Below, in pieces: positions 6,261 through 30,800 of a stretch of 36,287 bases of DNA. The number at the start of each line of letters is the position of its first letter. Position 1 is the first letter of the stretch. The stretch comes from Lentisphaera araneosa HTCC2155 (lineage in GTDB: Bacteria > Verrucomicrobiota > Lentisphaeria > Lentisphaerales > Lentisphaeraceae): contig CAMCSH010000004.1 of NCBI GenBank assembly GCA_945877655.1, positions 1-36,287 on the forward strand. Direction: 5' to 3'. The notes under the pieces were generated by a model that was given only the letters and a program-made list of their open reading frames with translations, did not search any database and was not told the DNA's origin. Both the position numbers and the translations under genes were made by a program.

Positions 6261-6315
6261 GATGGGGGGTATGAGCACTCCGTGCGGTGTTTAGTTTTCC
6301 AGCTCCCTTTAGGCC

Positions 6316-6465
6316 GGAGCGCGGCAGTCCGCGCAGCGACTGCGGCCGGGATGTCCGGGATCGGGTCGTGGCGACGATACCTGACTGACGCGATCAGATG
6401 TCTTCTGCCGCTTGTTGGTGCCGGAAATTGAGGGGCCGCAGTCGCTACGCGGACTGCCGCGCTCC
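6316..6465. repeat. REPIN 1: inverted pair of 32-nt REP hairpins
   Basis: The left arm (6316-6347) begins GGAGCGCGGCAGTCCGCG and the right arm (6434-6465) is its reverse complement except for one loop base. Each arm is itself a hairpin: GCAGTC pairs with GACTGC around an 8-nt loop. The 86-nt interior begins with ATGTCCGGGA and ends near GCCGGAAATTGA, and it is largely shared with the element at 10193-10342. It sits between a plus-strand gene end and the terminator of the reductase gene. Two facing REPs in one mobile unit is the REPIN layout known from Pseudomonas and other bacteria; a candidate mobilising RAYT gene lies at 20403. Confidence 0.9.
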
Positions 6466-6531
6466 ATTCACGGTCACATGGCATCTCTCTGACCTCGAGA
6501 CCTTGTAACCAGCAAGGCAAAGCCAAGCGCA

Positions 6532-10169: not shown

Positions 10170-10192
10170 TAGCTGGGATCGCCCTTTAGACC

Positions 10193-10342
10193 GGAGCGCG
10201 GCAGTCCGCGGAGCGACTGCGGCCGGGATGTCCGGGATTGGGTCGTGGCGACGATAGCTGACTGACGCAATCAGAGGTTTTCCTCCGCTAACACGTGCCG
10301 GACATTGAGGGGCCGCAGTCGCTACGCGGACTGCCGCGCTCC
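10193..10342. repeat. REPIN 2: inverted pair of REP hairpins
   Basis: The arms lie at 10193-10224 and 10311-10342. The left arm has G instead of C at loop position 19 (CCGCGGAGC); the right arm has the standard T. The interior is nearly the same as in the element at 6316-6465 for its first 50 nt and near its right end, so both are recent copies of one ancestor. It sits between the terminator of the membrane protein gene and the 3' end of flgL. Confidence 0.9.
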
Positions 10343-10360
10343 ACCTTGTTGAGCTTACCC

Positions 10361-12610: not shown

Positions 12611-12660
12611 GATCAGATCTCCTGTCGGTATGGTGTTTTGCAAGAAGCGGGCCATTTCAG

Positions 12661-12770
12661 TTAAGAATTAAGAATTAAGAATTAAGAATTAAGAATTAAG
12701 AGCGATGCATCTGATTCAGGCGGCCGTTGTTCGTCGTTCATTTTTAATTCTTAATTCTTAATTCTTAATT
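12661..12770. repeat. Facing arrays of 7-nt TTAAGAA units
   Basis: A 40-nt run of TTAAGAA heptamers (12661-12700) faces its reverse complement (TTAATTC units, 12744-12770) across 43 nt of ordinary sequence. The arms can pair over 27 bp. A shorter related run lies at 1380-1404. It fills the gap between flgK and the 54-aa gene, where it may act as an mRNA hairpin. Confidence 0.9.
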
Positions 12771-12774
12771 GAGC

Positions 12775-17690: not shown

Positions 17691-17857
17691 GGAGCGCGGC
17701 AGTCCGCGCAGCGACTGCGGCCGTAATGTCCGCAACTGTCAAAGCAAAGAAACCGCAGGATTGCGGCAGTTGCAAATCATGAAAGCAGTTCGCTTCAATC
17801 TTCGGACGGACGCCGGAAATAGAAGGGCCGCAGTCGCTACGCGGACTGCCGCGCTCC
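17691..17857. repeat. REPIN 3: inverted pair of REP hairpins
   Basis: Arms at 17691-17722 and 17826-17857 match the other copies and differ from each other at loop position 19 (C left, T right). The 103-nt interior keeps the ATGTCCG edge and the GCCGGAAAT edge but is otherwise different from the elements at 6316 and 10193. It lies between the 3' end of the PLP enzyme gene and the start of the MATE gene. Confidence 0.9.
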
Positions 17858-20078: not shown

Positions 20079-20302
20079 GGAGCGCGGCAGTCCGCGCAGC
20101 GACTGCGGCCCTTCCATTTCCGGCGTCAGTACGAAGAGCCGAACAAGTAGCCGACTTCGCGATTTGAGGTGGCGGTAAAAATCGTTCAAGATGGAGCGCG
20201 GCAGCCGACTTCGCGATTTGAGGTCGCGGTAAAAACGCGTTTTCTTCGCCTGATCTATCGCGGACATTACGGCCGCAGTCGCTACGCGGACTGCCGCGCT
20301 CC
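20079..20302. repeat. REPIN 4: rearranged inverted REP pair with internal duplication
   Basis: A left arm (20079-20110) and right arm (20271-20302) enclose an enlarged 160-nt interior. Inside, a 33-nt stretch (starting AGCCGACTTCGCGATTTGAG) occurs twice, at 20149-20181 and 20203-20235, with one mismatch. A broken REP head (GGAGCGCGGCAG, 20193-20204) lies between the copies. The simplest reading is a nested insertion or slippage in an existing REPIN. The element adjoins the truncated REP array next to the RAYT gene. Confidence 0.85.
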
Positions 20303-20398
20303 ATTTTGCTACGGACTGCCGCGCTCCATTTTGCCACGGACTGCCGCGCTCCTTTTTGCTGCGGACTGCCGCGCTCCTTTTTGCCGTGGACTGCGGCG
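20303..20398. repeat. Tandem array of truncated REP heads beside the RAYT gene
   Basis: Three 25-nt units (20303-20327, 20328-20352, 20353-20377) and a decayed fourth (20378-20398) follow one another. In RAYT orientation each reads GGAGCGCGGCAGTCCG, two or three variable bases, GCAAAAA or GCAAAAT. Only the first half of the REP hairpin is kept; the second stem strand (GACTGCGGCC) is replaced by the A-run. The array ends 4 bp from the RAYT stop codon and runs directly into an intact REP at 20271-20302. Confidence 0.9.
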
Positions 20399-20402
20399 TT
20401 CT

Positions 20403-21479
20403 TCAGCTCTGATGGCCACCATCGAAGAAGCTGCTCCATTGCCAGTCCTCGGCCCGTTTTACCAGTCCCGCCTTCAAAGGATTGTCCCGCACGTATTCCT
20501 TCGCCTTGAGCAAATGCAGCTCATCGCGAATGATGCGATCGTGATATTCCTCCTGCCAAAACGGCTCGGGCAAAGACGGCGACAAGCCCTGCGCGGCAAG
20601 TCGCGAAACCCGGCGGTTCAAGGCCCATTTCCACAGCCAGACGAGATAACCAAGCGAGAAAACGCGTTGACGGATCACGATGTGAAAATGATTCGGCATG
20701 ATCACCCAGGCGATGAGATCGTATTTGCGACCATCATCTTTCTTCAAAACCTGAATCAGGGCCACCGCGATTTGCGGATGGCGCAAAAGGCAGCAACCGT
20801 GGCCAGCATCGCTGAGGGCTTCGAGTCGCTGACGATAACGACGATTGAGCTCCGGATCGACCAAGCGGCTAGGGCCGATTTCTTCGATAAGCCTGGCCAA
20901 GAGAGGCGCGGGTAGAGAATCATGCAGACGACAGGTGATGCCTTGAATCCTTCCGGGTGCATCATGATGGGGAAGGTAGCCGCGACTGTGCCAATTTTCT
21001 GGCGTGGGTGCCTCAGCTTCATCTTCGTCGATCAAGGGGCTTTCTTCCTTCGCCTCGTCTCGGACATTCCGGCCGCAGTCGCTACGCGGACTGCCGCGCT
21101 CCTTTTCTTGTGGCACCGCCTTCTTGTCGCCGCGCAGCCAATGGGTGGCCCAGCCTTTTTCCACCCCGGCATCGCCGCTGCGGCTGAAGCGCAGCAAGCC
21201 CTTCGTTTTGCCCCAGCCGTGATAGGCGGTGAAGCTGTTGCGCCAGCCGCAATCCTTTGCCACCTGGCGAAGCGCTTTCATCGCCATGCTGATCTTGCTC
21301 AGATTGGTGCCGATCACTTTTTCAAGAAAGGCCACCTTGCCCTGTCGCCAGGCTTCGTAATCCTTCTTCTGCAGCCAGCCGAGACGCTGCACCAATTCCA
21401 CCGGCGCCACATGCCCCCGCTCCGTCATCAAAGCCGTGGCATGAAGCCGAACCTTCTGGCGCAATTCCTGATCGTTCAC
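20403..21479 (-). CDS. RAYT (REP-associated HUH transposase) fused to an N-terminal domain
   Basis: The product has 358 residues with a GTG start. Residues about 163-358 form a Y1_Tnp/RAYT domain: WHSRGYLPH and RIQGITCRLHDSLP at the start, the HUH pair H264 and H266 in MPNHFHIVI, and the likely nucleophile Y329 in KEYVRDNPLKAGLV, which aligns with the Tyr of the YIYINP segment of E. coli TnpA-REP. RAYTs cut and join single-stranded REP DNA. Residues 1-120 are a different domain (TERGHVAPVELVQRLGW, FLEKVIGTNLSK, LLRFSRSGD) that I recall as a standalone protein in other PVC bacteria. The linker (about 127-142, ERGSPRSDCGRNVRDE) is the in-frame translation of an intact REP. Catalytic residues are present, so the transposase may be active. 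Confidence 0.88.
   Translation of the reverse strand: MNDQELRQKVRLHATALMTERGHVAPVELVQRLGWLQKKDYEAWRQGKVAFLEKVIGTNLSKISMAMKALRQVAKDCGWRNSFTAYHGWGKTKGLLRFSRSGDAGVEKGWATHWLRGDKKAVPQEKERGSPRSDCGRNVRDEAKEESPLIDEDEAEAPTPENWHSRGYLPHHDAPGRIQGITCRLHDSLPAPLLARLIEEIGPSRLVDPELNRRYRQRLEALSDAGHGCCLLRHPQIAVALIQVLKKDDGRKYDLIAWVIMPNHFHIVIRQRVFSLGYLVWLWKWALNRRVSRLAAQGLSPSLPEPFWQEEYHDRIIRDELHLLKAKEYVRDNPLKAGLVKRAEDWQWSSFFDGGHQS
21071..21102. repeat. REP inside the RAYT coding sequence
   Basis: A full 32-nt REP, identical in sequence to the right arms of the REPINs, lies within the RAYT frame and is followed (minus strand) by the usual edge GAATGTCCGAGA. It keeps the frame open and encodes the linker between the two protein domains. 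Its orientation is the same as that of the gene. Confidence 0.93.
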
Positions 21480-21504: not shown

Positions 21505-21536
21505 AGCCGCAGTCGCTACGCGGACTGCCGCGCTCC
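21505..21536. repeat. Solo REP upstream of the RAYT gene
   Basis: This single REP has the right-arm loop (GCGTAGC on the minus strand) and one change at its outer end. It lies 25 bp upstream of the RAYT GTG and 8 bp past the stop of the next gene, with no inverted partner nearby. It points the same way as the RAYT gene. Confidence 0.9.
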
Positions 21537-30571: not shown

Positions 30572-30800
30572 AGCTGAAGCTCGACCCCGAAGCGGGTCGG
30601 TGACTACAGCCCAGGGTTGAGCCGTTTCGGCGACACCCTGGGTATAAGGCGGGAATGATATCGGACCCTGAAGGGGTCAAAGGATGGCGGTATCCGGTAT
30701 TCCTCGACCGTTGGGATCGGTTTTACAACTCCTTCTGACCCAGGGTGTCGCCGAAGCGGCTCAACCCTGGGCTAAAATCCACGACTCCTTTGGAGTCAGC
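30572..30800. repeat. Second inverted-pair element (AGCCCAGGGTTGAGCC family)
   Basis: Two 36-nt arms (30608-30643 and 30738-30773) are reverse complements at 35 of 36 positions; each also has internal symmetry (CCCAGGG/CCCTGGG). Smaller hairpins lie outside and between: CGACCCCGAAGCGGGTCG (about 30581-30599), GACCCTGAAGGGGTC (30664-30678) and GACTCCTTTGGAGTC (30783-30797). The layout is REPIN-like but unrelated in sequence to the REPs of the RAYT locus. A decayed copy is at about 2968-3024. It fills the gap between the coxD-like gene and the 220-aa gene. Confidence 0.85.

Follow-up and report, generated by a model that had tools for sequence, protein, structure and literature searches.

A chimeric RAYT gene and its REP repeats

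The window, that is, the whole 36,287-nt stretch of Lentisphaera araneosa HTCC2155 DNA that was analysed, carries at 20403-21479 on the minus strand one open frame of 358 codons with zero internal stops. In it an N-terminal domain (N-domain), a linker that includes a translated REP, and a RAYT transposase follow one another. RAYT genes are usually described as stand-alone and partly domesticated. The features of the locus are as follows.

20403..21479, minus strand: chimeric ORF of 358 aa, GTG start, single stop at 20403-20405
21126..21479, minus strand: N-domain, aa 1-118, of an unnamed family whose other members were found without a RAYT; model pLDDT 89.8
21071..21102, plus strand: intact 32-nt REP as translated linker, about aa 127-136 (extended repeat 21058-21102), disordered in the model
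21033..21035, minus strand: candidate internal TTG start of the RAYT (aa 149) with AAGGAAG before it, from the sequence
20406..21002, minus strand: RAYT domain, about aa 160-358 (H264, H266, Y329), from NCBIfam and 4er8 matches and the model
21506..21536, plus strand: REP copy immediately upstream of the chimeric ORF start
20287..20411, plus strand: half-REP tandem array of 25-nt units adjoining the RAYT stop
20272..20302, plus strand: REP copy downstream of the RAYT stop
20079..20109, minus strand: outer REP copy in inverted orientation

With one mismatch allowed, the REP occurs ten times in the window, compared with 0 in 100 shuffles, and the genome as a whole holds 58, compared with 0 for a reversed-pattern control. 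Many of the genomic copies form inverted pairs about 120-140 bp apart, and the 45-nt extended repeat at 21058-21102 is common to other REP copies. The RAYT thus has REPs on both sides and a cognate REP present in many copies, as expected of a RAYT, and presumably still acts on the 58 genomic copies. The window REP was absent near those of the genome's other RAYT loci that were fetched. Another RAYT of the genome (L133, G000:C172) has at about 500-580 copies of a different repeat of its own, in frame within its coding sequence.

Other repeats were seen in the window. Two 162-nt units (6305-6466 and 10182-10343), 91% identical, are each a REPIN-like inverted REP pair, and similar inverted REP pairs lie at 17691-17857 and 20079-20302. 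An inverted repeat unrelated to the REP occupies 30596-30785 (48 nt, 88% complementary, 94 nt between the arms), and a TTAAGAA tandem repeat with an inverted partner at 12657-12772 forms an AT-rich island in this GC-rich window. Rfam and tRNA scans of the window gave no matches.

Two independent halves joined by a REP

The first-pass annotation had proposed that the protein consists of two distinct domains, and structure modelling bears this out. The AlphaFold2 model of the full-length chimera contains two confident domains separated by residues 120-150 with pLDDT below 50, the linker in which the translated REP lies, and the N-domain modelled alone reached a pLDDT of 89.8 and a pTM of 0.82. 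The intact 32-nt REP is found exactly at 21071-21102, as had been reported. Its product had been placed at residues 127-142, which is too long for the 32-nt REP alone (about residues 127-136, ERGSPRSDCG) and suits the 45-nt extended repeat (about 127-141).

The RAYT half, with a core at about aa 160-352, matches the NCBIfam model REP_Tyr_transpos (NF047646) at 2.3e-21 and 76.2 bits, slightly under the curated cut-off of 80. It also matches PDB 4er8, a TnpA-REP/REP-hairpin complex, by sequence (2.6e-5) and by fold (1.6e-7); the Pfam Y1_Tnp match is weak. The His-hydrophobic-His motif of the Y1 HUH core is present as H264-F265-H266 and the catalytic tyrosine as Y329, so the earlier reading of an intact active site stands. 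A compact stand-alone gene is usual for a RAYT, if not strictly defining; here the gene is a 358-aa fusion with no upstream ATG and, as far as its sequence tells, is set apart by this as a RAYT variant.

The N-domain has a history of its own. It had been suggested that standalone homologues be sought, and among 388 genomes of the phylum we found eight good ones, all eight without a RAYT and most in open frames of about 130-160 aa; the fused pairing was seen only in the genome of the window. More distant homologues come from plasmids of Bradyrhizobium and Legionella, whose annotation treats them as genes in their own right. Were the N-domain an ordinary part of RAYTs, every RAYT homologue should share it, the outcome that the first-pass annotation had held decisive against a fusion; the N-domain was absent from the sampled RAYTs of the phylum. 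Conservation among the homologues stops near residue 116, and the homologues themselves run to the fusion point or a little beyond it, which indicates that the REP joined at a variable tail. The proposed chimera is therefore upheld: a gene of a separate N-domain family continues into a RAYT, and the REP serves as linker where members of that family vary, at the C-terminal tail. GC3 is 0.78 in the N-domain, 0.62 in the RAYT and 0.81-0.85 in neighbouring genes, a contrast that fits a resident gene and a more recently arrived RAYT. A contig search found no close relative of the locus, and no empty site was available in a close relative, the N-domain being missing from all five family genomes.

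Searches for a function of the N-domain gave no Pfam, PHROGs or PADLOC matches for any of the nine family members, no match to phage sequences and nothing convincing by sequence in the PDB. A Pfam match to UBact (E 0.1) was rejected as chance. A Foldseek comparison of its fold with solved structures returned nothing significant, several of the weak best matches being winged-helix DNA-binding proteins.

RAYTs in frame inside host proteins of the phylum

We searched the phylum for relatives of the RAYT. Among the 150 matches listed, 35 lay in open frames of 500 aa or more, and about 40 long ones were fetched. Host identity was established by reading through the long frames and by a Pfam scan, which showed host domains around the RAYT in one open frame. 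A stop-free RAYT was found between the two halves of LeuS, ValS, CarB, MetH, PriA, IspG (the second half of which was confirmed after the RAYT), the CCA-adding enzyme, HsdR and Eco57I-type methylases. Further hosts were a family-4 glycosyltransferase (GT4) in three genomes and radical-SAM/B12 proteins in four. For CarB and two methylases the Y1_Tnp match was too weak to be reported, and the position of the RAYT was taken from its match to that of the window. C-terminal RAYTs, as in the window, follow HsdS and two hosts identified by eye, a DUF1156-like protein and, probably, a TatD-like one. Loci with a named host include:

LeuS: L082, L083 (its frame of 2175 aa is inflated by masked bases after LeuS), L084, L086, L129
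MetH: L089, L090
IspG: L139
CarB: L091
PriA: L094
ValS: L092
CCA-adding enzyme: L148
GT4: L137, L138, L145
Radical SAM/DUF4080: L096, L140, L146, L149

In the GT4 and radical-SAM families RAYTs occur in several genomes, at sites that are the same or different.

In family f22, 5 of 60 genomes carry a RAYT in LeuS, always in one and the same loop, which follows the editing domain; in all five the RAYT-bearing LeuS is the only LeuS found, and genus-mates have an uninterrupted LeuS. In other genomes (L116, L120, L130, L131) the loop holds just an in-frame REP-like remnant or pair, and in the LeuS of genome G403 it holds a REP whose 3' junction is identical to that of the RAYT insert of G240. Derivation of the G240 insert from the genus's sampled free RAYT (L172) was also considered, and shared REPs gave it no support. 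The RAYT-bearing MetH (two genomes), IspG, CarB and PriA are likewise the only copies found, the carrier genomes, including those for LeuS, being 96-98% complete.

An ATG was present among the 25 codons that precede the core in 0/31 fused RAYTs and in 34/45 free ones (Fisher p = 2e-12), in a comparison for which the ATG was not a selection criterion and whose rows are related and not fully independent. Within the larger clade only, the counts were 0/25 and 18/21 (p = 5e-10). Every embedded RAYT that was scored retains the HUH motif, and almost every one the tyrosine motif, which the RAYT in PriA (L094) has apparently lost. The fused RAYTs are usually bordered by matching REPs: inverted repeats of 12 nt or longer flank 21 of 33, as against about 5% in mismatched-flank controls. 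Of the long frames that span a RAYT, 34 share the frame of the RAYT and 0 use any of the other five, long own-frame cases having been sought out. Because embedded cases were picked by their long open frame, the lost stop codon was not used as independent evidence.

In a quick tree, read without a direction of change, fused and free RAYTs are intermixed, with 14 changes between the two states, at least 9 of them on well-supported branches. LeuS inserts occupy several positions in this tree, so that repeated insertion into the loop is probable. An initial tree had placed the fused RAYTs in nearly one clade and was rejected as a sampling artefact, since only long-frame members of that clade had been sampled; adding 20 compact members mixed the labels. 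In the sequenced genomes, therefore, in-frame host-RAYT chimeras exist in many genes, including the sole copies of essential ones, with the active site kept and the ATG absent, and the insertions apparently leave the host proteins unbroken.

A RAYT probably riding on host genes

How much can the window gene itself tell? The REP is open in 5/6 frames and 105-nt stretches of the window are open 53% of the time, so that an in-frame join would arise by chance with a probability of about 1/3 x 0.5, or roughly 1 in 6 by our own estimate. The window alone therefore proves little and cannot separate a meaningful fusion from read-through. Together with the phylum-wide evidence, we favour, at a probability of roughly 0.7, the reading of the window gene as one more coding-tolerant RAYT riding on a host gene, here at the C-terminus, and as part of a wider habit of the phylum. 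A REP-RAYT element would have fused with a host gene at its 3' end, the frame being kept; the host gene would have lost its own stop and its variable tail, and the REP would have turned into a disordered linker.

The strongest competitor is accidental read-through, in which a RAYT, together with its 5' REP, inserted downstream of the N-domain gene, in frame by luck, and is made from the TTG at 21035, the fusion being an inconsequential by-product. The permissive frames of the REP and of 105-nt stretches of the window make such luck cheap. Moreover, the in-frame TTG follows an SD-like AAGGAAG and sits where free RAYTs begin, so it could start the RAYT alone, and the N-domain-RAYT pairing was seen in a single genome. 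Free RAYTs, however, mostly start with ATG (34/45), and that of the window has none, like the embedded ones. There is also no stop between the N-domain and the RAYT, so that a ribosome starting at the GTG must make the fusion: the N-domain has no other stop and its product must include the RAYT. With relatives showing open-frame RAYTs inside essential genes as well, we consider read-through improbable, if by some way the more serious of the alternatives.

The first-pass annotation had raised a domestication or a functional fusion, with an N-domain that may retarget the transposase. On such a view the N-domain would redirect the RAYT or regulate it, and selection would have favoured the chimera as a new protein. 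Both domains do appear intact and fold confidently, and the weak winged-helix likenesses of the N-domain, none of them significant, would suit a DNA-binding partner. Against this, the N-domain has no confident function or fold match and the pair does not recur in 388 genomes, which leaves retargeting unsupported. The RAYTs of the phylum join very different host proteins, making the RAYT side the common factor. With dozens of in-frame host-RAYT chimeras in the phylum, riding in host genes explains the chimera better, and we hold selection for a new protein to be very unlikely. Least credible of all is an assembly artefact: the junction lies within a repeat of 32-45 nt with 58 genomic copies in a single MAG of 370 contigs, where two loci could have been misjoined, but such repeats are shorter than ordinary short reads, and in other RAYT chimeras the host frame continues beyond the RAYT, which a misjoin would not produce.

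Under the favoured reading of a RAYT riding on host genes, the RAYT elements concerned have, by their sequences, frame-permissive REP ends, no start and usually no stop of their own, and lie in loops or tails of host proteins. They probably arrived as REP-RAYT-REP units. An insertion into coding DNA would survive only with the frame kept and no stop introduced, and the in-frame loop and tail positions may thus be what selection left. Having no start of their own and keeping the active site, the embedded RAYTs seem dependent on host translation, and we infer from their sequences that their only product is the RAYT-bearing host protein. Once it is translated along with an essential gene, a RAYT would be hard to delete or to silence.

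Rickettsia palindromic elements (RPEs) offer a parallel as in-frame repeats tolerated within functional proteins; to our knowledge they carry no transposase, unlike the embedded RAYTs. Intragenic REPs were already known, including those of Opitutus terrae (uvrA and others) and the RPEs (PMC3733652); these too are palindromic repeats that lie in frame within host genes and are translated with them, but they span about 20-82 aa, whereas here a whole transposase is carried in frame. REPtron/RAYT systems (TnpA-REP, an IS200/IS605-like Y1 HUH transposase) share the intact HUH and Tyr, the 4er8 fold and the flanking cognate REPs. The RAYTs described here differ in being fused to or embedded in host ORFs and in having no ATG of their own, the embedded ones also no stop. 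In the open-access literature we came upon no description of an entire RAYT lying in frame within a host gene.

Inteins with a homing endonuclease are similar in that a nuclease-like element lies in frame in essential genes and the same site is repeatedly occupied. An in-frame insertion in an essential single-copy gene was found in relatives (LeuS, MetH, IspG, CarB, PriA). Pfam scans of the window and of the embedded cases contained no intein/Hint splicing domain, and the insert is accordingly expected to remain in the protein and not to splice itself out. We give about even odds to a broader proposal, that REP-RAYT units without start or stop have adapted to essential genes, are made solely as a permanent domain of the enzyme that hosts them and continue to transpose from there, as a non-splicing counterpart of inteins.

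A survey of the TnpA-Y1 superfamily noted a few unexpectedly long proteins in each subclass, which it set aside as gene fusions or annotation errors (PMC6006769); embedded RAYTs may account for the long RAYT proteins dropped there. Whether tRNA synthetases or PriA function with an internal transposase domain, and whether the element is still mobile, are questions that these chimeras raise. The repeated occurrence of RAYTs in coding genes provides a concrete case of a selfish element persisting in gene-dense genomes.
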